Shown piece after piece: positions 16,171 to 50,719 of a DNA stretch of 64,000 nt. Each line of letters opens with the position of its first letter. The first letter of the stretch is position 1. The notes below the pieces were generated by a model. It worked only from the letters and a program-made list of their open reading frames with translations. It was not told where the DNA came from and did not search any database. Position numbers and translations under genes: made by a program. The stretch covers positions 1-64,000 of the forward strand of contig NZ_CP011868.1 of NCBI RefSeq assembly GCF_001294645.1, read 5' to 3'. This DNA comes from Pseudonocardia sp. HH130629-09 (GTDB taxonomy: Bacteria > Actinomycetota > Actinomycetes > Mycobacteriales > Pseudonocardiaceae).

Positions 16171-16471
16171 GCCTCTCGACACCACGGTTCCGGACGGTGC
16201 CGCGGGGGCGTTCGACCCCGCGGCACCGTACCGGCTCAGCGAGAGTGTCTCGCTGCGTCCGGAGCCCTTCGGCGCCCTGGTGTACGACTTCGTGACCCGC
16301 AAGCTGTCCTTCCTCAAGACGCCCCAGCTGGTCTCGGTCGTACGCGACCTGGAGAACCAGCCGGACGCCCGGTCGGCCGTCGTGGCCGCCGACGTCCCCG
16401 AGGCGCAGCACGACGCCTACCTGCGTGCCCTCGCCGGACTGCTGAAGTCCCGCACGATCGTCGCTCGCTAG
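16160..16471 (+). CDS. mftB: Mycofactocin precursor-binding chaperone (RRE protein)
   Basis: This 103-residue protein belongs to the PqqD-like RiPP recognition element family. It binds the MftA leader and hands the peptide to MftC. RLSESVSLRPEPFGALVYDF and RKLSFLKTPQLVSVV are the conserved segments that build the winged-helix fold. The GTG at 16160 lies inside the last codons of mftA, an 11-nt overlap that should couple translation of chaperone and substrate. It is followed 31 nt later by mftC. Confidence 0.94.
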   Translation: MSTKPLDTTVPDGAAGAFDPAAPYRLSESVSLRPEPFGALVYDFVTRKLSFLKTPQLVSVVRDLENQPDARSAVVAADVPEAQHDAYLRALAGLLKSRTIVAR

Positions 16472-16502
16472 TCCCGCCCGCCCCCGCGACCACCACAGTG
16501 AG

Positions 16503-17744
16503 GTGCCCGTGAAGCTGGTCGACCACTTCCAGTACGGCCTGAACTCGCCCATCTGCCTGACCTGGGAGCTCACCTACGCGTGCAATCTCGCGTGCGTGCA
16601 CTGCCTGTCCAGCTCGGGGCGGCGCGACCCGCGCGAGCTGAGCACCGCCGAGGCCAAGGCCGTCATCGACGAGCTGCAGCGCATGCAGGTCTTCTACATC
16701 AACATCGGTGGCGGCGAGCCGACCGTGCGCCCGGACTTCTGGGAGCTGCTGGACTACGCCATCGCCCACGACGTCGGCGTCAAGTTCTCCACCAACGGCG
16801 TCAAGCTCGACAAGGCCCGTGCCGCGCAGCTCGCCGCGACAGACTACGTCGACATCCAGATCTCTATGGACGGCGCGACGGCCGAGGTCAACGACTACGT
16901 GCGGGGCCCCGGCTCGTTCGACACCGCGATCACCGCGCTGGAGAACCTCGCCGAGGCGGGCTTCAAGCACCCCAAGATCTCGGTCGTGATGACCCGGGAG
17001 AACGTCGACCAGCTCGACGAGTTCAAGGCCATCGCCGACAAGTACGGCGCCCAGCTGCGGATCACCCGGCTCCGCCCGTCCGGCCGCGGTGCCGACGTCT
17101 GGGACGAGCTGCACCCGACCCAGGCCCAGCAGAAGCAGCTCTACGACTGGCTGGTCGCGAACGGCGACCAGGTCCTGACCGGTGACTCGTTCTTCCACCT
17201 GTCGGCCTACGGCGAGGCCCTGCCCGGGCTGAATCTGTGCGGCGCGGGCCGCGTGGTCTGCTTGATCGACCCGGTGGGCGACGTCTATGCCTGCCCGTTC
17301 GCGATCCACGAGAACTTCCTGGCGGGCAACGTCCGCGACGAGGGCGGCTTCAAGGAGGTCTGGGAGCACTCCGAGCTGTTCACCGAGCTGCGCCGGCCGC
17401 AGACCGGCGGGGCGTGTGCGTCGTGCTCGCACTACGACACCTGCCAGGGCGGGTGCATGGCCGCGAAGTTCTTCACCGGTCTGCCGCTCGACGGTCCGGA
17501 CCCGGAGTGCGTGCAGGGCTACGGCGAGGCGATGCTGGCCGCGCGCTCCTCCGACGCGGTGATCCCGAGGTCCGACGTGGACCACTCGCGCTCCGCGCCG
17601 CGCAACTCCCGCGCGCCGAAGCAACCGACGATGCTCTCGCTCGCCCCGCCACCGCGCCGGCCGGACCGGGCGTGCGACGAGAACCCGCTCGCCGGGTTCG
17701 CGCCGGACGCCGTGCCCGCGGCGCAGCCGGTAGCGACCCGCTGA
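16503..17744 (+). CDS. mftC: Mycofactocin radical SAM maturase
   Basis: This 413-residue radical SAM/SPASM enzyme decarboxylates the C-terminal Tyr of MftA and forms the Val-Tyr crosslink. The SAM cluster motif is C27-x3-C31-x2-C34 (YACNLACVHC), and the SAM-binding GGGEPTVRPDF follows. Auxiliary cluster cysteines are in LCGAGRVVCLIDPVGDVYAC and in CASCSHYDTCQGGCM, ending with PECVQGYG. The last ~50 residues (Pro/Arg/Ala-rich) extend beyond the catalytic core and overlap the possible start of the next gene. Start choice is between GTG 16503 and GTG 16509; the former is used. Confidence 0.95.
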   Translation: MPVKLVDHFQYGLNSPICLTWELTYACNLACVHCLSSSGRRDPRELSTAEAKAVIDELQRMQVFYINIGGGEPTVRPDFWELLDYAIAHDVGVKFSTNGVKLDKARAAQLAATDYVDIQISMDGATAEVNDYVRGPGSFDTAITALENLAEAGFKHPKISVVMTRENVDQLDEFKAIADKYGAQLRITRLRPSGRGADVWDELHPTQAQQKQLYDWLVANGDQVLTGDSFFHLSAYGEALPGLNLCGAGRVVCLIDPVGDVYACPFAIHENFLAGNVRDEGGFKEVWEHSELFTELRRPQTGGACASCSHYDTCQGGCMAAKFFTGLPLDGPDPECVQGYGEAMLAARSSDAVIPRSDVDHSRSAPRNSRAPKQPTMLSLAPPPRRPDRACDENPLAGFAPDAVPAAQPVATR

Positions 17745-30708: not shown

Positions 30709-31827
30709 TCAGCTCGCGTGGGAGAGCAGGGGCACGAGCTGCTCGGCGGTGGTGAACGAGCCGTGCTGGCCGGGGAACGTCGACAGGAACGGCTCGGCCT
30801 CGGTCCGGACCACCGCGGCCGTCCCGTGCATCGCGACGACGATGTCGCCGATCCGGTCGGCGACCGGGCCGAACCAGCCCCGGGCCACCGCCTCCTCCCG
30901 GGTGACGACGGACGCGTCGTCGCCGAGCACGGCCCGCCAGGCGGCGAGCACATCGGCCGTCGCACCGGGTGCGGTGTAGACGTGCCGGGCGCGCGGGTCC
31001 CCGCCGAGCAGCGCCACGCCGTCGGTCAGCGCCGGGGTCGTGTCGGCGTCGACGGTCCGGTCGACGGTGACCATGCCGTGGTCGCCGGTGACGGCCAGCA
31101 GCGTGCCCGCAGGCAGCTCGGCCAGGAGCATCCCGAGCAGCGCGTCGACCTGGCGCAGCTGCCAGCGCCACGCCGGCGTCCCCGGGCCGTACAGGTGGCC
31201 GACCTTGTCGAGGTCGGCGTGGTAGCCGTAGACCAGCCGGGGCCCCGGCCCCTCGACGCCGGCGAGGATCTCGACGGCCAGGTCGCCCAGCGCGGCGACC
31301 CCGCGGTACTCGCCGCCGCGCAGCCCGGACCGGGTCAGCCCGGACGTCCGGAACTCCAGCGGTGACACCGACCGCACCGCGACGCCAGCCGCCGCGGCGC
31401 GCTCCAGCACCGTCGGCTCCGGCTGCACCCGCTCCGGGACGAGCGTCGTCCGCAGGTCCCGGCGACCCGAGGACCAGCCCAGCGCGTCGAGCAGCTCCCC
31501 GTCGACGCGGAACCGCAGGCCCAGGGTGCCGTGCGCGCCCGGGGGCAGCCCGGTGCCGAGCGAGGTCAGGCTGATCGGCGTCGTCGAGGGGAAGCCGACG
31601 GTCAGGGGCCCGGCATCGGCGAGTCCGGCCAGCACCGGCGCGTCATCGGCGTGGGCGTGCAGCAGCTCGTGGCCGAGGCCGTCGACCAGCAGCAGCACCG
31701 CCGCCCCGGCCTGCGGCAGCGCGAACGCGGGCGGCCGCTCGTCGAGCGGGGCGCCGATCGCGTGCGTCAGGGCGGGCAGGACGTCGGCCAGCGTCGCCGA
31801 GCCGTAGCGGGGGAGGACCTCGGACAT
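30709..31827 (-). CDS. Alkaline phosphatase-fold nucleotide pyrophosphatase/phosphodiesterase
   Basis: This 372-residue soluble protein belongs to the type I phosphodiesterase/nucleotide pyrophosphatase group. LLLVDGLGHELLHAH gives the first metal Asp, VGFPSTTPISLTSLGTGLPP carries the nucleophile Thr, YGYHADLDKVGHLYGPGT supplies Asp/His ligands, and LAVTGDHGMVTV the final Asp-His pair. It is usually annotated alkaline phosphatase family protein. The ATG at 31827 is used. It is convergent with adenine deaminase and divergent from mftF. A link to nucleotide breakdown is plausible from its neighbour but unproven. Confidence 0.85.
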   Translation of the reverse strand: MSEVLPRYGSATLADVLPALTHAIGAPLDERPPAFALPQAGAAVLLLVDGLGHELLHAHADDAPVLAGLADAGPLTVGFPSTTPISLTSLGTGLPPGAHGTLGLRFRVDGELLDALGWSSGRRDLRTTLVPERVQPEPTVLERAAAAGVAVRSVSPLEFRTSGLTRSGLRGGEYRGVAALGDLAVEILAGVEGPGPRLVYGYHADLDKVGHLYGPGTPAWRWQLRQVDALLGMLLAELPAGTLLAVTGDHGMVTVDRTVDADTTPALTDGVALLGGDPRARHVYTAPGATADVLAAWRAVLGDDASVVTREEAVARGWFGPVADRIGDIVVAMHGTAAVVRTEAEPFLSTFPGQHGSFTTAEQLVPLLSHAS

Positions 31828-39932: not shown

Positions 39933-40418
39933 TCAGTCGTCGTCGCGGTGGTCGTCGGCCTGGTCGTCACGGTCGTGGTCGAGGACCTGGCCGGTGGCGG
40001 CGTCGATGTCGATGTCGTGCTCGATGGTGCCGTTCAGGACCTCGACCTCCCAGTGGTCCCGGTCGTCGTCGCCGGTGTCGCCGTCGTCGTCCCGGTCGTC
40101 CCGGTCGTCCCGGTCGTCGCTGTCGAACTCGACCTTCGTGACACGGCCCCCGCCCGCGGCGGACAGGGCGGCACGCTCGGCGGCGGCGCGGTCGACCGCG
40201 GGCGCGGCGGGCGCAGGAGCGGCGGTCGTCGGCGCGGTGGCGTCGGTGCGGGGGAGCTCCGGGGGCAGCAGGTCGGCGGTGCGCGCGATCGCGGCGCCGG
40301 TCGGGACGACGGCGAGCTCGTCGGGGGCACCGCCCGCCCCGAATGCGAGGGCGGTGCCCCCGCCGACGAGCAGGAGGCCGGTGGCGGCGACGGCGGCAAC
40401 GGTGAGCGGGGTACGCAC
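39933..40418 (-). CDS. Secreted PepSY-domain protein with Asp-rich tract
   Basis: This 161-residue protein has a signal peptide (VAAVAATGLLLVGGGTALA) and a Pro/Ala-rich segment. A PepSY-like half follows: AALSAAGGGRVTKVEFDSDD, HWEVEVLNGTIEHDIDIDAATGQVL. An Asp/Arg-rich tract interrupts the domain and is encoded by short CGGTCGTCC repeats; the tail is also Asp-rich. PepSY proteins often bind or inhibit peptidases, or lie next to two-component systems. Metal binding by the acidic tract is possible but inferred. Confidence 0.75.
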   Translation of the reverse strand: MRTPLTVAAVAATGLLLVGGGTALAFGAGGAPDELAVVPTGAAIARTADLLPPELPRTDATAPTTAAPAPAAPAVDRAAAERAALSAAGGGRVTKVEFDSDDRDDRDDRDDDGDTGDDDRDHWEVEVLNGTIEHDIDIDAATGQVLDHDRDDQADDHRDDD

Positions 40419-40564: not shown

Positions 40565-42025
40565 GTGTCGACCATCAGCCCGGACGAGGGAGTGGCGCGC
40601 CGGCTGAAGGCCCTGGCCTGCACGGCGCCGCTGCACGACCTCGACGCCCGCAAGGGGCGGCTCGACTGGGACGCGACCGGCTACCAGATGGCGGAGATCG
40701 GGCTGCAGGCGATCGACCAGGTCACCCTGGCCATGGACTTCGACCACGGTGCGGACCACGCCGAGGTCGTCCGGCGGCTGCTGCCGTTCGTCGGCGCGCA
40801 GGTACCGGGGGCACCGCGGTCGGAGTACGTCCGCGTCGCACAGTGGGTGATCGACAACCTGATCAACGTGGGGTCGATCGACCGCGGGTTCGCCGTGGAG
40901 TACGGCACGACCGACGACAAGGGGCGCTACGTCCGTCGCCGGTTCGACTTCAAGCTGCTCGTCGAGGTCGCCGCCCCGGACGGCGGGATCTACCTGCGCG
41001 CCTCCGACGAGGCGATCAACGTGCTGGTCGGGGCACTGGACACCGACGTCGAGTCGGCCCAGGAGGCGGCCGAGACGAAGCTGGAGACGCTGATCGTCCG
41101 CGGCCGTCTCGGCGACGCCCGGCTGGCGGCCGAACAGGCCCGCTACCGGACCGTGCAGTACGCGGAGTCGTTGCGGCGCAAGCTGGAGGCCACCCGCCGC
41201 GACGTCCGGTCGGTGGACTGGCTGGACGCGGTCCCGCAGCTGCTCGACGAGGCACTGACCCACATCGAGGCCCGCTACCGTGCCGAGACGATGATCAAGG
41301 CGAACATCGCCGACGCCCGCGACGAGGCCACCGAGCCGGGGCGCCGCCGGCAGGCCGCGGAGCTGGTGACCGTCGTCGACGACTGCATCCAGCGGCACAC
41401 CCAGCTACAGGCGCGGTTGCAGGAGGCGGGGGCCGCGTTCCGCGCCGAGCAGGATCGCCAGCAGTTCTCCGGGAAGCCGAAGCGGGCCGCCGTCGACGTG
41501 TTCGGGCAGCTCCTGCGGCCGTCGCTGGCGCTGACCGTCGAGGCGGCGCACGACCCGGTGACCGGCTACTTCGCGGCCGGGGCCGGTGTGCGCAACCCGT
41601 CGGTGCCGAGCCTGGGCGGGCTGGTCGAGACGTTGCTGACGCCGCCGAGCGACCGGGACCCGTTCGGCGCCGAGGTGCCCGAACCGGAGCTCGCCCCGCA
41701 GCCGCGCGAGCGGTTCGGGGTGGAGACCTGGGCTGCCGCCGACGCCGTGCTGCCCGACGAGATCGAGCACCCGGTGCGGCTGTCCGCGGCGCTCGCGGCG
41801 GCCCGCGCCGCCGGGGCGGACCTGCCGCACCTGGTCGCGCTGCGGGCGGTGCACGCCGTCGGAACGGCGGTGGCCACGGCCCGGACCCAGGGCGACCCGT
41901 CGGTGCTGGTCGCCGTCGACGACGGGACGGTCCTCGACGACCCCGAGTTCGGCGGCGCCGACCTGCTGCTGGCGCGGGCCGGTGTCCAGGGTGGAGAGAC
42001 GAACCGACGGACGGCGCAGACATGA
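40565..42025 (+). CDS. jetA: Wadjet/Mks-like kleisin subunit (JetA/MksF-type)
   Basis: This 486-residue protein is the first gene of a four-gene SMC operon. It is predominantly helical: a winged-helix-like N-terminal region (DLDARKGRLDWDATGYQMAE, VIDNLINVGSIDRGFAVEY) is followed by long amphipathic helices (residues ~150-310). This suits the MukF/MksF kleisin that bridges the SMC heads. I recognise it by order and architecture, not by a sharp motif. The GTG at 40565 is the likely start. Its stop overlaps the jetB ATG by 4 nt. Confidence 0.72.
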   Translation: MSTISPDEGVARRLKALACTAPLHDLDARKGRLDWDATGYQMAEIGLQAIDQVTLAMDFDHGADHAEVVRRLLPFVGAQVPGAPRSEYVRVAQWVIDNLINVGSIDRGFAVEYGTTDDKGRYVRRRFDFKLLVEVAAPDGGIYLRASDEAINVLVGALDTDVESAQEAAETKLETLIVRGRLGDARLAAEQARYRTVQYAESLRRKLEATRRDVRSVDWLDAVPQLLDEALTHIEARYRAETMIKANIADARDEATEPGRRRQAAELVTVVDDCIQRHTQLQARLQEAGAAFRAEQDRQQFSGKPKRAAVDVFGQLLRPSLALTVEAAHDPVTGYFAAGAGVRNPSVPSLGGLVETLLTPPSDRDPFGAEVPEPELAPQPRERFGVETWAAADAVLPDEIEHPVRLSAALAAARAAGADLPHLVALRAVHAVGTAVATARTQGDPSVLVAVDDGTVLDDPEFGGADLLLARAGVQGGETNRRTAQT

Positions 42026-43128
42026 GTGACACCGAGACCGCGGCCCGCCTGGTCGGCTACGGCATGCGACCCAAGGCGCTGCCCGGACGCGACCCCGACT
42101 ACGCCGACCTGGTCCGCCGCTACCGGGAGGACGACGAGTTCCGCACGACCGTGCAGCGCGTCGCCTCCGGCCTCGGCCTGGTCGTGCTCGCCGTGGACAC
42201 CGGCCCGGGCATCGTCCTTGCCGCGACCGAGGGCTCGGTCTTCGAGATCCGGATGGACGAGTACGCCCGCCGCACCGCCCTGGCCAACCGCGGCGCGGAC
42301 AAGGTCCTGCACGGCATCGCGCACCTCGCCGTCGCCGCGTTGGCCTTCCCCCGCCCCGACGACCTCGGCGACGACTCCTACGTCGGCCGGGTCTCGGTGG
42401 AGCTCGTCGACGGTGCCGTCCGAGAGGCCTGCCGGGTACTGAACGAGCGTGCCGCGGGCCCCGCCGACCCCGAGTCCGACGCCCCGCAGCTCGAGGAGGT
42501 CTGGCGGGTCTGGCAGCGCCGTCCGGAGGCCACCGCGACCAAGGACGGCCGGGTAGGGGAGTCCACCACCCGTGGGATCGTCGGCAAGGCCCTGCGGTTC
42601 CTCGCCGACCAGGGCTTCCTCGTGCCGGTCGGGGCGGAGGGCGCCTACCGGACGACGCCGCGCTACCAGGTGCAGGTGCGGGAGCTCGCCGCCCAGCGGG
42701 CCTTCGACGAGCTGCTGGCCCTGAACGTCCTGCCCGCCGCGACCGCTGCGGGGACCCTGGTGACCGAGCACGACGGGGTGTTCGACCCGCCGGGCGCCGG
42801 TGCGGAGGGCGCGGCCGGGCCATCCGGGCCGGCGGAGTCCGCCGAACCGTCGCCCGCTGCCGGGGGTGGCGGCCCGGCCGGTCCCTTCGACGGCGACGGT
42901 GGCCCCGACGGCCTCGACGGAACGGGTGCCCCGCAGGAGATCGCCTACCGGGTAAGCGAACTCGGCCAGAAGGGTGCCGGGGGAGACGGCGTGGTGGCGG
43001 ATGGCGCACCGGTCGGGGACACGGATGCCGGCCCGACAGCGCAGCCCGGCGCGACGGACGAGCCCGGCCCGACGGATCGGGCGGACCCTCCGGCGACCGA
43101 CGAACCCACGGAGGAGCGCGATGTATGA
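42022..43128 (+). CDS. jetB: Wadjet/Mks-like KITE subunit (JetB/MksE-type)
   Basis: This 368-residue protein has an ordered N-terminal ~240 residues with winged-helix segments (DLVRRYREDDEFRTTVQRV, RGIVGKALRFLADQGFLV), matching the MukE/MksE/DUF4194-like KITE partner of the kleisin. The C-terminal ~130 residues are a Gly/Pro/Ala/Asp-rich tail not expected in the family and probably disordered. It overlaps jetC by 8 nt. The role is to join JetA and JetC in the loop-extruding complex. Confidence 0.72.
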   Translation: MSDTETAARLVGYGMRPKALPGRDPDYADLVRRYREDDEFRTTVQRVASGLGLVVLAVDTGPGIVLAATEGSVFEIRMDEYARRTALANRGADKVLHGIAHLAVAALAFPRPDDLGDDSYVGRVSVELVDGAVREACRVLNERAAGPADPESDAPQLEEVWRVWQRRPEATATKDGRVGESTTRGIVGKALRFLADQGFLVPVGAEGAYRTTPRYQVQVRELAAQRAFDELLALNVLPAATAAGTLVTEHDGVFDPPGAGAEGAAGPSGPAESAEPSPAAGGGGPAGPFDGDGGPDGLDGTGAPQEIAYRVSELGQKGAGGDGVVADGAPVGDTDAGPTAQPGATDEPGPTDRADPPATDEPTEERDV

Positions 43129-46100
43129 GCTGACCCGCGTCCGCCTGTTCTCCGTCGGGCCGACCGCCGCGCGCTACCAGGACGTCGCGCTCGACCTGCG
43201 GGGCGTCGGCGCCCCGGTGAAGGTCGCCGTGCAGGAGGACCTGTTTGCCCCGGACGCGCTGGACCGCACGACGCCGCGGCGGCCGTCGCCGGCGTCGGTG
43301 CTGTTCCTGGAGAACGGTGGCGGCAAGTCCGTCCTGCTCAAGCTGATCTTCTCGGTGCTGCTGCCGGGGCGGCGTCAGGTCGTCGGCACCACCAGCACCA
43401 CGGTGCTGGAGAACTTCGTGCTCGCCGAGGACGTGGCGCACGTCGTCTGCGAGTGGATGCACGTCGGCACCGGGCGGCTCCTGGTCACCGGGAAGGTGTC
43501 GGAGTGGCGCGGGCACGTCGCCTCCACCGATCCGGAGAAGCTGGCCGACGCGTGGTACTCCTTCCGGCCGGTTCCCGGGATGGGGCTCGACGACCTGCCG
43601 TTCACCCACGACGGCCGCCGAGTCACCCTGGCCGCGTTCCGGGAGCGTCTGCAGACCGCGCACCGCGAGCACCCCGACGCCGAGCTCGCCTGGGAGACCG
43701 GGCACCGGGACTGGACGCGCCACCTCGTCGACGTCGGGCTGGACCCGGAGCTGTTCCGCTACCAGCGCGCCATGAACGCCGGTGAGGGCGAGGCCGCCGA
43801 GGCGTTCTCGTTCTCCTCCGACGAGGGGTTCGTCGACTTCCTCCTGCGTGCGGTGCTCGACCCGGCGGAGCCGCAGAACGTCGCCGAGCTCGTCGCCGGG
43901 TACGCCGACCGGCTCGCCCAGCGCGAGGAGCTGGAGACCGAGCGGGAGTTCGTCGACGGCACGCTGTCCCGGCTGGAGCCGATGGTCGACGCCGAGGCCA
44001 CCGCGACCGCGGCCCGCGACACCGAGACCGCCGCGCGCGCCGAGCTGGCGGCGACCGCGTCGCGGATCGCGGCCCGCCGGGTCGCCGAGGAGGCCCGCTC
44101 GGTGACCGCCGCCGAGGAGGCCGCCGGCGCCGTCGAGGCCGAGCAGTCCGCGGCCCGTGCGGCGGAGCGGCTGCAGGACACCGTCGGCGAGCTGCGCAGA
44201 CTCACCGCGGTGCTCACCGTCGAGGCCGCGGAGCGGATCGCGGCCGAGGCGACCCGCGAGCGCGACGACGCGTCGGCCGTGTCGATGGCCCGTGACGCCG
44301 TCGAACCGGTGCTGGCGCACCGCGTCGCCGCCGCCGAGGCCGCGCGGCTGCGTGCCCGCGTCGAGGAGGAGGAGCAGAAGTCCCGGCCCGCACTCGCGGC
44401 CCGGCAGGACGCGGCCCGTGCCCTCGCCGCCGCGCTGGCCCGCGTCGCCGCGGAGGCCGACGCCGCCGCCGACGCCGCGGAGACCCGCCGCGCCGACGCC
44501 GAGGAGCGCGCGGCAGCCGCCCGTCGCGAGCAGGTCACCCGCACCGCCGACGCCGCCCGTGCCGAGAGCGCGGCCGGCGCCGCCCGCGAGGCCCTCGACG
44601 AGCTCGACACCCGGGTCGCGGCCGCCGTCGACGCGGGGCACCTGAAGGCGGGCTCGACCGCCGCCGACGTCGAGGACGAGGCGACGGCTGCCCGGATCGA
44701 CGCCGAGCGGTGCGCCGCCGCGCTCGCCGACGCCGACACCGCCGCCGCGGCGATCCGCGAGGAGCGCCGGGCCGCCGAGACCCGCCGCACCGCGGCGCAG
44801 GACGCGGCGGCCGCCGCCCGCGCCGACGCCGCGACCGCCGAGGCCGCACGATCCGCGGCGCAGGCCGACGCCGTCGCGCTCGCCGGGGAGACCCGGCCCG
44901 CGGAGCTGCTCGGGCTCGACGAGATCCGCCCGGACACCGACGCGGGCCTCGTCGTCGACACCCTGACCACCGCGATCCGCGGCGCCGAGCGGGAACGGAC
45001 GACCCTGCACGGCGACCAGCGCCGCGACGAACGCGCGCTCGCCGCGCTCGGCGACGGCGGCCTGCTGCCCGACCCGCCCGAGATCGAGGACGTCCTCGTG
45101 GTGCTGGAGTCCGCCGGGATCACGGCCTGGTCCGGGCGTCGCTACCTGGCGAAGCTGCCCGCCCCCGACCGGGAGACCGTGCTGGCGCGGCTGCCGCACC
45201 TGGCCGGCGGAGTACTGCTCAACGACGCGCGCGACGCCGAGCGGGCCCGCACCCGGCTGGACGCGGCGCGGCTGCTGCCGGCCTGCCTGGTCGCGGTCGG
45301 CACCACCGCCGCGCTGCGCGCCGACGCCGACCCGGCGCCCGGGATCGACTTCGTCGTGCCGCCCAACCCGGCCCTGCACGACGAGGAGGCCGCCGAGCAG
45401 GTCCGGGTCCGCCTCGTCGCCGAGACCACCGAGCGCGCCGCCCGGCTCGCCGAGCTGGAGACCGTCCTCGACGACGATCGCAGGCTGCGGGACCGGTTCG
45501 CCGCGCTGCGCGGCCGTCGCCCCACCCTCGCCGACCTCACCGAGGCCGCCGAGATCGCCGAGGCCGCACGGGCCGCGGCCGTCGCCGAGCACGAGGCGAC
45601 CCGCGCCGCGGTCGAGGATCTCGACGAGCGCGCCGACCGGCTCGCCGCCGACCGGCCCGGCCTGGAACGGACCGCCGGGGACACGCGTCGCCGGGCGGAC
45701 GCGCTGGCCGCGCTGCGCACCGAGCTCGCCCGCCGGGCGACGCACGAGGAGCGGATCCGCACCGGGGAGGCCGACGCCGCGCGGGCCCGTGAGGAGGCCG
45801 ACGCCGCCGGGACCACCGCCGACCGCGCCGCTCGCGAGGCCTCCGACGCCCAGCAGACCCGCGATCGGCAGCGCGGCATCGGCACCACCCTGCGCGACGA
45901 GGCCGCGGCCCTCCCGGTCTCCCCCGAGGAGATCGGCGACCCGGACGCGGAGCCGGACGGGACCCCCGAGGGTTCGCTGGCCGAGCTGCGCGAGGAGTTC
46001 CAGCGGGCCCGCGACGCCTACGCCTTGGCCGCCGTCGACACCGACCTGCACGGTGCGCTGGAGCGGGCCGAGGCCGACGCGCGGGAGCGCCGGATCGCCG

Positions 46101-47632
46101 TCGACGGGCTGCCGCGCACCGTCGTCGAGGCCGCGACCGCGTTCCTGCACACCCCCGACGGCGCCGACGCCGCCAGCCGTCGCGTCGCCGCGGAGCAGGC
46201 CAGGGCCGCCTACGACGAGGCCGAAAGCCGCCGCGCCGACGCCGCGACGGAGCTGGCCGTCGCCCGTCGCGAGCTGGAGCGGTTCACCGGCGGCGAGCGG
46301 CCGATCGACCACGGTGCCGAGGGGCGCTCCGCGGGCTGCGCGCCCTACGACGCTCCCCGCGACGCCGAGCACGGCCGTGAGCTGGTCGCCCGCGCCGCGG
46401 CGGACCTGGACGTGGCGGGCACGGAGCTGGAACGCCGTCGCCGGGCCCGGACCGCCGCCGAGGACGCCCACCGCACCGCCACCGACCTCGCCCGCGGGTT
46501 CGGGCTGGTCGTGTCCTCGTTGGACGAGACGCCCGAGCCGTCCGGGGTGCCGTTCGACGGCGACGTCGAAGCCGCCCAGGCCGCGCTCAAGCGCCACCAG
46601 AACGCCGTCCGGGACGCGGCGGGGGAGCGGACGCGCGCCGAGAAGAAGGTCCGCGAAGGGGTCGACGCCGTCGCCCGCTTCGCACAGGACCCGCGGTTCG
46701 CGACCCTCACCTCCCCGGTGCACCGCCACATCGCCGGCGTCGACCGGTCGGAGATGCCGGGCCTCGCCGTGGAGTGGATCGCGGCGCTGCGCCCGCGGCT
46801 GCGTTCCCTCGACGACGACCTCGGCAACATCGAGCGGCACCGCTCCGGGATCGTCACCCGGCTGTCCGGGATGGTCGGCGAGGCGCTGCGCACCGTGCGC
46901 CTCGCCCAGCGGCTGTCCCAGCTGCCCGAGGGCCTCGGCGACTGGTCGGGCCAGCAGTTCCTGCGGATCCGGTTCGAGGAGCTGCCCGACGCGGCGTTGC
47001 GCCACGAGCTCGGCGCCGTCGTCGACCGCACCGCGACCGGGATGGCGGGCGGCAAGGCCAAGGACCGGCGCGACGGCATGTCCATGCTGCTGCGCGGGGT
47101 CAGGGCGGCGATGCCGAAGGGCGTCCGGGTCGAGATGCTCAAACCCGACGCCGTGCTGCGCACCGAGCGGCTGCGCGTCTCCGCGATCAAGGACGTGTTC
47201 TCCGGCGGGCAGCAGCTGACCGCGGCGATCGTCCTGTACTGCACGATGGCGGCGCTGCGGGCACACCAGCGCGGGCAGGGCAGGCGGGCGCACGCGGGCG
47301 TGCTGTTCCTCGACAACCCGATCGGACGCGCGTCGGCGGGCTACCTGCTGGAGCTGCAGTTCGGCGTCGCGCAGGCCCTCGGCGTGCAGCTGATCTACAC
47401 GACAGGGCTGTTCGACGCGGGCGCGCTGTCGTCGTTCCCGCTGCTCGTGCGGCTGCGCAACGACGCCGACCTGCGCGCCGGACGCAAGTACCTGTCGGTC
47501 GACGAGCGGGTCACCCGGTCGGTGCCCGACGCCGACGCCCCCGGCGGCCGGATCACCGCGGCGCGGGTCTACCGGCGCCCCGAGGCCGCGGTGCCCGCCG
47601 GCGCAGGCGACGGCGCGGGATCGGCAGGATGA
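43121..47632 (+). CDS. jetC: Wadjet/Mks-like SMC ATPase (JetC/MksB-type)
   Basis: This 1,503-residue SMC-like ATPase has Walker A near aa 65 (LFLENGGGKSVLLKLIFSV). Two long Ala/Glu/Arg-rich coiled-coil arms (roughly aa 270-620 and 780-1150) flank a middle hinge-like region. The C-terminal head has the ABC signature DVFSGGQQLTAAIVLYCT and Walker B AGVLFLDNPIGRAS. This is the MukB/MksB/JetC layout, in which a dimer extrudes DNA loops. The ATG at 43121 lies inside the jetB 3' end. The length and coiled-coil order argue against RecN or SbcC. Confidence 0.88.
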   Translation: MYELTRVRLFSVGPTAARYQDVALDLRGVGAPVKVAVQEDLFAPDALDRTTPRRPSPASVLFLENGGGKSVLLKLIFSVLLPGRRQVVGTTSTTVLENFVLAEDVAHVVCEWMHVGTGRLLVTGKVSEWRGHVASTDPEKLADAWYSFRPVPGMGLDDLPFTHDGRRVTLAAFRERLQTAHREHPDAELAWETGHRDWTRHLVDVGLDPELFRYQRAMNAGEGEAAEAFSFSSDEGFVDFLLRAVLDPAEPQNVAELVAGYADRLAQREELETEREFVDGTLSRLEPMVDAEATATAARDTETAARAELAATASRIAARRVAEEARSVTAAEEAAGAVEAEQSAARAAERLQDTVGELRRLTAVLTVEAAERIAAEATRERDDASAVSMARDAVEPVLAHRVAAAEAARLRARVEEEEQKSRPALAARQDAARALAAALARVAAEADAAADAAETRRADAEERAAAARREQVTRTADAARAESAAGAAREALDELDTRVAAAVDAGHLKAGSTAADVEDEATAARIDAERCAAALADADTAAAAIREERRAAETRRTAAQDAAAAARADAATAEAARSAAQADAVALAGETRPAELLGLDEIRPDTDAGLVVDTLTTAIRGAERERTTLHGDQRRDERALAALGDGGLLPDPPEIEDVLVVLESAGITAWSGRRYLAKLPAPDRETVLARLPHLAGGVLLNDARDAERARTRLDAARLLPACLVAVGTTAALRADADPAPGIDFVVPPNPALHDEEAAEQVRVRLVAETTERAARLAELETVLDDDRRLRDRFAALRGRRPTLADLTEAAEIAEAARAAAVAEHEATRAAVEDLDERADRLAADRPGLERTAGDTRRRADALAALRTELARRATHEERIRTGEADAARAREEADAAGTTADRAAREASDAQQTRDRQRGIGTTLRDEAAALPVSPEEIGDPDAEPDGTPEGSLAELREEFQRARDAYALAAVDTDLHGALERAEADARERRIAVDGLPRTVVEAATAFLHTPDGADAASRRVAAEQARAAYDEAESRRADAATELAVARRELERFTGGERPIDHGAEGRSAGCAPYDAPRDAEHGRELVARAAADLDVAGTELERRRRARTAAEDAHRTATDLARGFGLVVSSLDETPEPSGVPFDGDVEAAQAALKRHQNAVRDAAGERTRAEKKVREGVDAVARFAQDPRFATLTSPVHRHIAGVDRSEMPGLAVEWIAALRPRLRSLDDDLGNIERHRSGIVTRLSGMVGEALRTVRLAQRLSQLPEGLGDWSGQQFLRIRFEELPDAALRHELGAVVDRTATGMAGGKAKDRRDGMSMLLRGVRAAMPKGVRVEMLKPDAVLRTERLRVSAIKDVFSGGQQLTAAIVLYCTMAALRAHQRGQGRRAHAGVLFLDNPIGRASAGYLLELQFGVAQALGVQLIYTTGLFDAGALSSFPLLVRLRNDADLRAGRKYLSVDERVTRSVPDADAPGGRITAARVYRRPEAAVPAGAGDGAGSAG

Positions 47633-48675
47633 CCGTGCCCGGCGACGCAGGGCGCGGGCAGCGCTGTCGTGCCGGTGCGCCCGGGCCGGTCGCGGAACGG
47701 CTCGCGGAGCTGCTGCGGGCCTCCGGGCGGACCCGGATCCCGCGCTCGGCGGTACGCGCGGCCTTCCTGCGGGCCGACCCCACGATGGTCGGCAGCGTCG
47801 ACGCCCGGCGGAACCTGGCCGCGGTCCTGGCGGAGCTGACCGCCGCCGGGGTGATCGAGCCGACCGACCGCGCCGACGACGGCAGCCCGCCGCTGCCGAA
47901 CTCGGTCCGGCTGCTGCGTGCCGCCCCGGCCCCGGCGCCGCAGGACCGCACCCCGTGGCACGCCGAGCTGTCCTGGGCGGCGGGCCTGTCCCGGCCGTCG
48001 CCGACGCTGCTGCAGGTCAACGAGTGGCTGTTCCGGCACGCGGCGCGGGCGGTCGAGGTCCCGTTGCGGGAGCGCGCACTGGAGATCACCGGCGACGAGA
48101 AGGCGTTCGACGGCCGCCTGCCCGGCGAGCTCTCCCTGGCGACCCTGCGGGCGCGCCGGGTCGTCCCGCCGCTGCACCGCGAGCCGCTGCCCGGGGGCGG
48201 GCCGGTGCTGCTCGTCGTCGAGAACGCCGACACCATGGACTCGCTGCTCCGGGCGCTGCGACCCGAGCCGGGGGCGGTCGGCGGAGTCGCCTGGGGCGCC
48301 GGGAACGCGTTCACCGCGTCGGTGCTCACGCTGCGGGAGGCCCCGCCGTCGGAGGTCCGGTACTCCGCGATCCGGTACTTCGGCGACCTCGACGCGGCGG
48401 GGCTGCGGATCCCGCGCCGCGCGGGTGAGCTGGCCGTCGCCGAGGGGCTGCCGCCGGTGCGGCCCGCGACCGGGCTGTACCGGGCCTTGCTGGAGCACGG
48501 CCGTCCGGCGGCCGCGTCGAGCGTCGACCACGCCGACGTCGAGTGGCTCGATCCCGCGCTGCGCGGCCCCGTCCGCGACCTGTTCGCGTCAGGGGCACGC
48601 CTCGCCCAGGAAGCCATCGGCGCCACACACCTGGCCGACGACCCGACCTGGCGCGCCGGGCTCGCCCCCGACTGA
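47629..48675 (+). CDS. jetD: Wadjet/Mks-like Toprim nuclease subunit (JetD/MksG-type)
   Basis: This 348-residue protein has an N-terminal winged-helix-like arm (RIPRSAVRAAFLRADPTMVG, LLQVNEWLFRHAARAVEVP). The C-terminal Toprim-like nuclease half has VLLVVENADTMDSLL (Toprim Glu), GVAWGAGNAFTASVL and YFGDLDAAGLRIP (the D-x-D of JetD proteins). JetD cleaves closed circular DNA once JetABC has extruded it, giving plasmid restriction. The ATG overlaps the jetC stop by 4 nt. Assignment to a named Wadjet type is left open. Confidence 0.82.
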   Translation: MTVPGDAGRGQRCRAGAPGPVAERLAELLRASGRTRIPRSAVRAAFLRADPTMVGSVDARRNLAAVLAELTAAGVIEPTDRADDGSPPLPNSVRLLRAAPAPAPQDRTPWHAELSWAAGLSRPSPTLLQVNEWLFRHAARAVEVPLRERALEITGDEKAFDGRLPGELSLATLRARRVVPPLHREPLPGGGPVLLVVENADTMDSLLRALRPEPGAVGGVAWGAGNAFTASVLTLREAPPSEVRYSAIRYFGDLDAAGLRIPRRAGELAVAEGLPPVRPATGLYRALLEHGRPAAASSVDHADVEWLDPALRGPVRDLFASGARLAQEAIGATHLADDPTWRAGLAPD

Positions 48676-48740: not shown

Positions 48741-50018
48741 TCAGGGGGGTGGGGCGAGGGTCAGGTCTACTCGGAGGCCGTGGGTGGGGGGTGAGGTGAC
48801 GGTCAGGGATCCGCCGGCCTGCTCGGCGGTGCGTCGGGCGATGTCGAGGCCCAGGCCCGTCGAGCCGCCGCCGCTGACCCCGCGGGAGGTCGGGTCGGTG
48901 CCCGGTGGCAGACCGGGGCCGTCGTCGTGCACGACGATCCGGGCGCCCCCGCCCGAGCGGGCCGTCAGCTCCACGCCGAAGGCCGTCCCGTCCTGGGTGT
49001 GCGCGAACACGTTGCCCAGCAGCGCGTCCACGCACGCCTCCAGGTCACCCGGCGCGCAGGCCACGGGCAGCGGGCCGTCGGCGAGGTGCAGGGTCACCGA
49101 GCGGTCGGTGTCCTCGGCCAGCACCCGCCAGAACTCCACCCGCTCCCGGACGACGGCCGCCGCGTCCGTGCTGCGGGTCGTGCCGCCGCCGCGTCGCCGG
49201 GCCTGCTCGATCGCGCCGGTGACCGCCCGCGCGACGCCGTCGACCCCGGCCGAGATGCGGGCGACGTCGTCCGGGTCGCGCAGGGCCTCGGCGTCCAGAC
49301 GCAGCGCGCTGAGTGGGGTGCGGACCCGGTGCGCGAGGTCCGCGACGTTCTCCCGCTCCTCGCGCAGCAGCTCCGAGATCCGCCCGGCCAGCCCGTTCAA
49401 CGCCCCCGCGACGACGCCGAGCTCGGCCGGGGCACCGGGGTCGGCGCGCGCGGACAGGTCCCCGGCCGCGAGCCGCTCCGACACTCCGGACAGGTCGGTG
49501 GCGGCGTCGACGAGGGTGCGGGCCAGCCGGTCCGCGACCAGCAGCCCGCCGGCGAGCAGCACCAGCGAGAGCCCGCCCAGCAGCAGCCAGGAGCGGGCCA
49601 CACCGCGGGTGAGCTCGGTGTCGGGGACGAACACCCGGATCGCGGCGTTGCCGCCGGCGGCGCCGGTCACCGCGAACACCAGCTCGCGCCCGCCGGGCGC
49701 CTCGGTCGACGCGCTCGTCCCGAGCAGCCCCAGCCGGACCACCGGGCTGCGTGGTGCGGGCGCGCCGAGGACGGTGCCGTCGGGCAGGAACACCGAGACC
49801 TCGGAGGCGTCGCGGCCGTCGGCGTTCTGGACGGCGGGGGCCAGCACCGACCGGTCACCGCCCGCGACGGCCGGGGTCAGCACCTGGGCCTGGACGGTCG
49901 CGGCGGACACCGCCGAGCTCTCCGCGACCGAGCGGATCAGCGTCGCGAGCGGGATCGCGAAGGCGACCAGCACCAGCAGCACGGTCGCCCCGACGAGGAC
50001 GAGGATGCGCCGCCGCAT
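48741..50018 (-). CDS. Two-component sensor histidine kinase
   Basis: This 425-residue membrane kinase has two transmembrane helices (VLVGATVLLVLVAFAIPLA and LLLGGLSLVLLAGGLLVADR) enclosing a ~110-residue extracytoplasmic sensor. A HAMP segment precedes the phosphoacceptor helix NVADLAHRVRTPLSALRLDA (His in AHR). The ATPase N and G boxes are DALLGNVFAHTQ, VHDDGPGLPPG and STGLGLDIARRTAE. The stimulus is not evident. The ATG overlaps the stop of the response regulator gene by one base, so the pair is co-expressed. Confidence 0.93.
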   Translation of the reverse strand: MRRRILVLVGATVLLVLVAFAIPLATLIRSVAESSAVSAATVQAQVLTPAVAGGDRSVLAPAVQNADGRDASEVSVFLPDGTVLGAPAPRSPVVRLGLLGTSASTEAPGGRELVFAVTGAAGGNAAIRVFVPDTELTRGVARSWLLLGGLSLVLLAGGLLVADRLARTLVDAATDLSGVSERLAAGDLSARADPGAPAELGVVAGALNGLAGRISELLREERENVADLAHRVRTPLSALRLDAEALRDPDDVARISAGVDGVARAVTGAIEQARRRGGGTTRSTDAAAVVRERVEFWRVLAEDTDRSVTLHLADGPLPVACAPGDLEACVDALLGNVFAHTQDGTAFGVELTARSGGGARIVVHDDGPGLPPGTDPTSRGVSGGGSTGLGLDIARRTAEQAGGSLTVTSPPTHGLRVDLTLAPPP

Positions 50019-50719
50019 CAGGCGGTGCCCGGTCCGGTTCCCGACGGCGCGGACAGCCGGATCCCGACGCCGCGCACCGAGTGCAGGTAGCGCGGGTCCT
50101 GCGCGGTCTCACCGAGCTTGCGGCGCAGCCACGACAGGTGCACGTCGACGGTCTTGTCGGCGCCGCCGTAGGGCTGCTGCCACACCTCGGTCATCAGCTC
50201 ACGCTTGCCGACGACCTGGTCGGCGCGGGCGGCGAGGTGGTGCAGCAGGTCGAACTCGCGCGGGGTCAGCTCCAGCTCGGTGCCGTCGAGCACCGCGCGC
50301 CGCGACCGCGGGTCCACCGACAGCCCGCCGACGACGACCGTCGGGTCGCCGGCCCCGTCGCCGAGCCGGCGCAGCACCGCCCGGATCCGGGCATCGAGCT
50401 GGGCGGCGGCGAACGGCTTGACCAGGTAGTCATCGGCGCCTGCGTCGAGCACGGAGACGATCTCGGTCTCGTCGTCTCGGGCGGTCGCGACGATCACCGG
50501 CACCGTGCTGGCGCCGCGCAGCATGCGCAGCATGGTTGTGCCGTCCATGTCGGGCAGACCGAGGTCGAGCACCACGAGGTCGGGCCGCTTCCCGACGGCG
50601 TGCTCCAGCCCCGCCATCGCGGTCGGCGCGGAGTCGACGGCGTGCCCCCGCTCGGTCAGCCCGCGGATGAGGGCACCGCGGATGCCGGGGTCGTCCTCGA
50701 CGATCAGGATCTGGGCCAC
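50018..50719 (-). CDS. OmpR/PhoB-family response regulator
   Basis: This 233-residue regulator has a receiver domain with acidic pocket ILIVEDDPG, phosphoacceptor Asp in LVVLDLGLPDMDG, Thr/Ala in VIVATARDD and Lys in DDYLVKPFAAAQL. The C-terminal winged helix has LTPREFDLLHHLAARADQVV and VDVHLSWLRRKLGE. It is the partner of the kinase encoded immediately downstream. The GTG at 50719 starts the conserved AQILIVEDD; the ribosome site is weak. The target genes are unknown. Confidence 0.94.
   Translation of the reverse strand: MAQILIVEDDPGIRGALIRGLTERGHAVDSAPTAMAGLEHAVGKRPDLVVLDLGLPDMDGTTMLRMLRGASTVPVIVATARDDETEIVSVLDAGADDYLVKPFAAAQLDARIRAVLRRLGDGAGDPTVVVGGLSVDPRSRRAVLDGTELELTPREFDLLHHLAARADQVVGKRELMTEVWQQPYGGADKTVDVHLSWLRRKLGETAQDPRYLHSVRGVGIRLSAPSGTGPGTA

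Follow-up and report, generated by a model that had tools for sequence, protein, structure and literature searches.

Wadjet systems of type I, or MksBEFG, are described from Corynebacterium glutamicum, Pseudomonas aeruginosa PA14 and Escherichia coli GF4-3 and combine a kleisin, a KITE protein and an ATPase of the structural maintenance of chromosomes (SMC) class with a nuclease. The MksBEF and MukBEF complexes share the kleisin/KITE/SMC core and have no nuclease. Type names are used here as in PADLOC and in a review (PMC10586767). We examined a four-gene operon, JetA-JetB-JetC-JetD, in positions 1-64,000 of contig NZ_CP011868.1 (GCF_001294645.1) from Pseudonocardia sp. HH130629-09; this whole stretch of 64,000 nucleotides is called the window. 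The operon very probably encodes a Wadjet system of type III with all its subunits, and it occupies an accessory site in the chromosome of an actinobacterial, Pseudonocardia-like host with a G+C content of 70-81%. As such it is genuine and complete, one more example of an established kind, type III Wadjet. What a specialist may not expect is the apparent recurrent nuclease loss among its relatives: JetD-bearing and JetD-less forms exist within one genus, and loss of the nuclease seems to be repeated in this group.

Type assignment of the operon

The four genes are adjacent in this order on the plus strand, and in the open-reading-frame (ORF) reading JetB, JetC and JetD each begin before the preceding gene has ended (Table 1). 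The PADLOC type III models match JetA, JetC and JetD very strongly and JetB weakly. Because of the E-values of JetA, JetC and JetD, and because orthologues in the same gene order are present in many genomes, the operon is not a product of chance. The genome of the window contains one JetC match and one JetD match (whole-genome profile searches). The sequence-only reading of this DNA had claimed a complete four-gene Wadjet/Mks-type SMC system, and this is borne out by the four ORFs and the PADLOC matches of JetA, JetC and JetD. Its motifs, ENGGGKS, SGGQQ and LFLDNP in JetC and GDLDAAG in JetD, are all read in the respective genes.

By its profile matches the operon is Wadjet type III, an already catalogued type, because the type III models match JetA, JetC and JetD; JetA, JetC and most of JetD are covered. 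The earlier proposal of an unassigned type, possibly a divergent or unlisted subtype, thus had to be given up. A new subtype outside types I-III is highly improbable. It could appeal to the fact that no subunit reaches a Pfam or NCBIfam cut-off and that JetB is nearly unmatched by PADLOC, yet the matches of JetA, JetC and JetD already contradict it for these three subunits, and relatives from other branches match the same models. In Pfam, JetA and JetC match nothing, and below the cut-off there are DUF6063 for JetB and JetD_C and DUF2399 for JetD. In NCBIfam, a single match far under the cut-off connects JetA to an unrelated flagellar family, and JetC has none.

A DNA repair ATPase operon of the SbcC/RecN kind, which the sequence-only reading had named as the outcome that would speak against it, shares with the window a long ABC-type ATPase and nothing else. 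Up to E 10 JetC finds neither a Pfam nor an NCBIfam family, SbcC/RecN included; it is matched by JetC3 end to end and is accompanied by JetA and JetD. This explanation is already contradicted by the subunit set and has next to no probability.

The dissimilarity of JetC to TIGR02680 had been brought forward as an argument against type III. The dissimilarity as such is correct: the window JetC has no NCBIfam match, and a profile search of the window's own genome returned zero TIGR02680 matches. The argument is not, since TIGR02680 had been mistaken for the type III form. The TIGR02680 protein of a relative scores as PADLOC JetC2, i.e., type II, with E 0, and therefore a JetC unlike TIGR02680 is what is expected of type III. 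Wadjet type II (TIGR02680) has the same plan as the window system, and profile searches find TIGR02680 at other loci within the same genus.

Type I models score far weaker than those of type III (JetC1 E 0.048, JetD1 E 2.7e-4; PADLOC). The window operon and type I have the same architecture, and the structure models of the window JetB and JetD resemble type I subunits; however, the window JetC of 1,503 amino acids exceeds C. glutamicum MksB with 1,111 amino acids (PMC10123090). With MksBEF and MukBEF the operon shares the kleisin/KITE/SMC core. These complexes lack a nuclease, as do the JetD-less relatives, whereas the window keeps JetD, though it was not found in many relatives. Compared with other type III systems the gene order and the subunit set are the same, and the difference lies in JetB, which the JetB3 models match only faintly and which ends in a predicted disordered tail seen in one lineage.

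Table 1. Positions of the Jet subunits and their motifs in the window
Feature	Position	Strand	Details
JetA, kleisin-position subunit	40565-42025	+	486 aa, GTG start; PADLOC JetA3 PDLC00567 E 5.1e-201, residues 3-485/486
JetB, KITE-like subunit	42022-43128	+	368 aa; PADLOC JetB3 PDLC00573 E 0.0012; AlphaFold model
JetB C-terminal Gly/Pro/Asp-rich tail, ~residues 246-368	42757-43125	+	predicted local distance difference test (pLDDT) mostly <50
JetC, SMC/MukB-like ATPase	43121-47632	+	1,503 aa; PADLOC JetC3 PDLC00588 E 0, residues 1-1495
JetC Walker A ENGGGKS, residues 64-70	43310-43330	+	read directly as LFLENGGGKS
JetC ABC signature SGGQQ, residues 1361-1365	47201-47215	+	read directly
JetC Walker B LFLDNP, residues 1395-1400	47303-47320	+	read directly
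JetD, putative Toprim nuclease	47629-48675	+	348 aa; PADLOC JetD3 PDLC00594 E 7.9e-101, residues 23-344
JetD Toprim glutamate E198 (VVEN)	48220-48222	+	invariant in 15/15 aligned JetDs
JetD Toprim GDLDAAG (in YFGDLDAAG), residues 252-258	48382-48402	+	D253 and D255 invariant in 15/15 aligned JetDs

JetA is a putative kleisin on account of its PADLOC family match. The AlphaFold model of JetB, built from 21 sequences, has a mean pLDDT of 63, with 84-97 for the blocks of the first 70 residues. Its 18 best matches in the PDB are all from MukE, MukEF, MukBEF or JetABC entries, the chains being taken as MukE/JetB from their length; none has an E-value of 0.001 or below. The resemblance of the modelled core to MukE/JetB is a hint and no strong evidence. 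JetD, modelled from 15 sequences with a pLDDT of 89, matches MksG 8b7f (3.7e-4), topoisomerase VI (6.1e-4) and JetD 7til (3.4e-3) with low TM-scores of about 0.3-0.4, and because of these scores the modelled domain arrangement of JetD is tentative. Sequence and profile searches of the subunits found no solved type III subunit in the PDB, which makes the window operon useful. Among the profiles, that of JetD reaches 7til with 0.032, those of JetB and JetC hit only unrelated chains and that of JetA nothing; dynein matches of the JetC profile at about 1e-3 were discarded as coiled-coil chance.

The Gly/Pro/Asp-rich tail of about 130 residues, which the sequence-only reading had noted in JetB, exists. 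As the mark of a subtype it fails: among 21 aligned JetBs it occurs in the window and in locus L025 (421 amino acids), the others being 234-272 amino acids long, and a simple gene finder gives a third long JetB in L064 (381 amino acids). It appears to be a disordered, length-variable extension of one small lineage. Of note, the JetB3 models, which barely match the window JetB, fail on the JetB of locus L038. Automated calls may score systems with such JetBs as incomplete.

JetD among the relatives

In profile searches JetB was matched in 24 of 60 genomes, the window's own included. The JetD profile matched 14 of these 24 genomes, and G003, G021 and G033 weakly only. The three weak matches are no more than 0.9 kb away from TIGR02680 genes and were rejected as type III and read as type II. 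JetA, JetB and JetC were found without a type III JetD in ten genomes (G001, G003, G009, G010, G011, G012, G014, G021, G031 and G033). Of L025-L037, the 13 nearest loci fetched, four have an adjacent JetD (L025, L026, L028, L037) and eight have none; L029 ends with its contig. A second clade of seven loci has JetD in five, in L039 as pieces, and lacks it in L040 and L044.

A scan of species genomes with a JetC alignment confirmed at least 570 relatives. The best 80 were kept and are not a random sample. By JetC the nearest among the matches listed is Pseudonocardia sp. ICBG1293, with 93% in the best segment. JetA was matched in 76 and JetB in 79 of the best 80, the misses being loci truncated on their upstream side. 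Seven loci have an adjacent JetD (L064, L066, L074, L088, L089, L116, L124). In the other 73 JetD was not found beside JetC (L099 has less than 1.5 kb downstream). When whole genomes were searched for 40 of these 73 loci, 37 gave no JetD match and three did; the search recovered JetD in three of three JetD-bearing control genomes. L065, L067 and L068, among the 40, are the same genomes as G001, G010 and G011.

An even sample of 246 genomes of the class, with 6-8 candidates scored per genome so that weak matches may be missed, contains JetA matches in 33 and JetD matches in seven, the window's genome included. In the window's genome alone JetD is near the best JetA. It is near a second JetA in G211 and G341 and far from the best JetA in G271, G281 and G342, and G251 has a JetD match and no JetA match. 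Two JetD-like matches have no JetA match nearby (G281:C1:1241428-1242396 and G251:C749:650-1663). They could be orphan nucleases, could neighbour a JetA that has diverged beyond the reach of the profile, or could lie at a contig end.

The neighbourhoods of 77 of the 80 loci were clustered for replacement genes and the 40 largest clusters inspected; L089, L116 and L124 were dropped because the gene finder did not place JetC. A replacement fourth gene was rejected: the recurring families are neighbours common within Streptomyces or within genera of Pseudonocardiaceae. One transporter family recurs at different places in two genera. By look alone, with no profile search made, no nuclease-like family was seen among the recurring neighbour clusters.

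A further set of genomes comes from the genus of G119. It is called Streptomyces here because the best copies of G211, G351, G400 and G430 nest among named Streptomyces in the tree. In 101 sampled genomes (98 good ones), with 15-20 candidates scored per genome, JetA is matched in 98 (97 of the 98 good ones) and JetD in nine. There are ten JetD matches in all, G429 having two; each has a second JetA of lower score at a distance of 5.3-5.6 kb, and none is beside the best copy. The count in the 101 genomes covers JetA and JetD; JetB and JetC were seen, and JetD was not found, in the best copies of G211, G351, G400 and G430, and JetB and JetC were also seen in 49 JetD-less Streptomyces loci, which were selected by JetC within the best 80 (JetB in 48). 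A type III-like JetABC lacking JetD seems to be part of the core genome of Streptomyces.

Recurring neighbours were observed as well. In the 49 JetD-less Streptomyces loci (within L090-L143) one gene family recurs in 42 and another in 36; we take them to be a GntR-like regulator gene and a large sensor-kinase gene, respectively. All 11 Amycolatopsis and five of six Prauserella loci (within L069-L087, L119 and L132) share a neighbour block, presumably gap-pgk-tpi. Tamaricihabitans (L074) has the same block and yet has kept JetD, i.e., the difference in JetD is one in place. As a side observation, contig 1 of G429 carries near its two ends equal-scoring JetA copies in opposite orientation, each with a JetD match, one of them shorter, as expected of terminal inverted repeats.

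These distributions can be cited for a rival explanation, namely that the module is mainly a chromosomal condensin of the MksBEF/MukBEF kind which organises the host DNA, and that JetD is a dispensable, lineage-specific extra. It is aided by the 73 JetD-less loci, by the Streptomyces counts with each JetD beside a second JetA, and by the neighbours that recur among the Streptomyces loci and among those of Amycolatopsis/Prauserella. On the other side, MksBEFG of C. glutamicum is reported to act on plasmids and not in chromosome organisation (PMC7083940), and the window JetD possesses all Toprim residues. We consider the condensin explanation unlikely, though more probable than the other rivals.

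According to an actinobacterial defence survey Wadjet occurs in 42% of Actinobacteria, and >43% of the Streptomyces ones are in chromosome arms; in its main text the word JetD is absent (PMC10482375). Surveys counting complete four-gene systems only would presumably miss a JetD-less JetABC. In the open-access PMC literature, for some queries its top entries, we recognised no paper in which a type III JetABC lacking JetD is presented as a core gene set of Streptomyces.

Descent, selection and presumed function

A tree of the JetA, JetB and JetC heads was calculated with 72 rows from 121 loci, the window included; near-duplicates, truncated loci and most Streptomyces were left out. JetD-bearing and JetD-less versions interleave on this one tree, and the JetD state changes at least eight times, on long branches and with a short search. 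The JetD tree (27 rows) displays the same groups: the window with L025, L026, L066 and L028; L037, L088 and L089; L074, L116, L124, L150 and L154; and L151, L152, L153 and L159. Neither tree fixes the direction of change alone; together, shared descent with repeated loss of JetD fits better than repeated gain from elsewhere.

The ratios of nonsynonymous to synonymous substitution rates (dN/dS) between the window and L025 are 0.08 for JetA, 0.25 for JetB, 0.20 for JetC and 0.42 for JetD, all below 1. Four JetD-bearing pairs span 0.08-0.26 (JetA), 0.14-0.25 (JetB), 0.20-0.35 (JetC) and 0.23-0.48 (JetD). Four JetD-less pairs have 0.09-0.28, 0.07-0.18 and 0.19-0.38 for JetA, JetB and JetC, and in their ATPase motifs the JetD-less proteins do not differ from their JetD-bearing kin. 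Judged from these ratios the JetD-less JetABC is under purifying selection. This is again in line with the condensin explanation, against which stands the dN/dS of the window JetD below 1. Because the JetABC and JetD trees agree and the JetD-less JetABC is under purifying selection, repeated loss of the nuclease is probable, and what remained would be an SMC complex of three subunits.

How the complete form might work can be outlined by analogy with type I, for which two articles describe the extrusion of DNA loops (PMC10586767, PMC10123090). JetABC of the window would likewise extrude loops. On a small closed circle two motors would meet and collide, JetD would be switched on and would cut the plasmid; neither linear DNA nor the large chromosome would be cut. 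In related actinobacteria the same JetABC module would have repeatedly lost JetD and persisted as a three-subunit SMC complex. The window operon would then be the complete form, presumably a working plasmid-cutting version, in a group which keeps the motor more widely than the nuclease. The JetD-less forms, in our view, most likely either work in a condensin-like manner or handle plasmids but do not cut them.

The type III Wadjet reading of the window draws on conserved ATPase and Toprim motifs, family membership, a JetD tree concordant with JetABC and dN/dS values below 1. The nearest fold matches of the JetB and JetD models and the site of the operon, where 11 relatives give no JetD match, are counted for it as well. 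Several points weigh against it. Most relatives examined do without JetD, and hence plasmid cutting may not be the only job of the module. The dN/dS of JetD is the highest of the four genes in both window pairs (0.42 and 0.45), a pattern that relaxed selection and rapid adaptation could both produce. JetB barely scores on its family model (0.0012), and its best fold match has an E-value of 2.4e-3. Finally, sequence searches gave no solved type III subunit, so that the mechanism had to be borrowed from type I.

Beyond the window, we lean slightly towards the view that type III Wadjet was disarmed many times in actinobacteria by loss of JetD with retention of JetABC, and that one such complex became a near-universal, condensin-like chromosomal gene set of Streptomyces. 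If true, the window and its close kin form a natural series leading from a plasmid-cutting machine to one for chromosome maintenance or for plasmid sensing without cutting. The near-universal JetD-less form makes the question accessible to direct tests in laboratory Streptomyces.

Genomic site of the operon

JetABCD stands between a PepSY gene (window 39933-40418) and a histidine kinase/response regulator pair (48741-50719). Pfam identifies upstream a molybdopterin-dehydrogenase flavoprotein, CoxG, an S58 peptidase and the PepSY protein, and downstream the histidine kinase, the response regulator and a MoaA-type protein. A Pfam scan of ten window genes, eight of which are neighbours, gave no recognisable phage or transposon gene. 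Among the 20 loci L025-L044, L025 and L026 share the window's neighbours; in L025 a PepSY-like gene lies at either side.

The orthologous histidine kinase was fetched from 13 relatives (L175-L187) together with about 1.5 kb of flanking sequence in either direction, or less where a contig ended. JetD is beside it in L175 and L176, which are the loci of G026 and G013, and within this distance it is unmatched in all 11 others (L177-L187). A PepSY match is near the kinase in eight of these 11, and gene prediction in four of them places a CoxG-like gene next in L178, L180 and L183, not in L177. In G001 the kinase and JetABC are 2.5 Mb apart on the same contig. The simplest reading is that JetABCD was inserted at this site in the lineage of the window; loss in the 11 other relatives would be the alternative. 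That the window copy occupies a site where 11 relatives show no JetD speaks further against a mainly chromosomal condensin.

Elsewhere in the window, ARAGORN calls a tRNA at 31171-31263, with no type assigned and a four-base anticodon, inside a predicted gene of the same strand; the call is probably false. At 16280-17744 a small protein gene is followed by a radical SAM/SPASM enzyme, a pair which, we assume, resembles a mycofactocin cluster.

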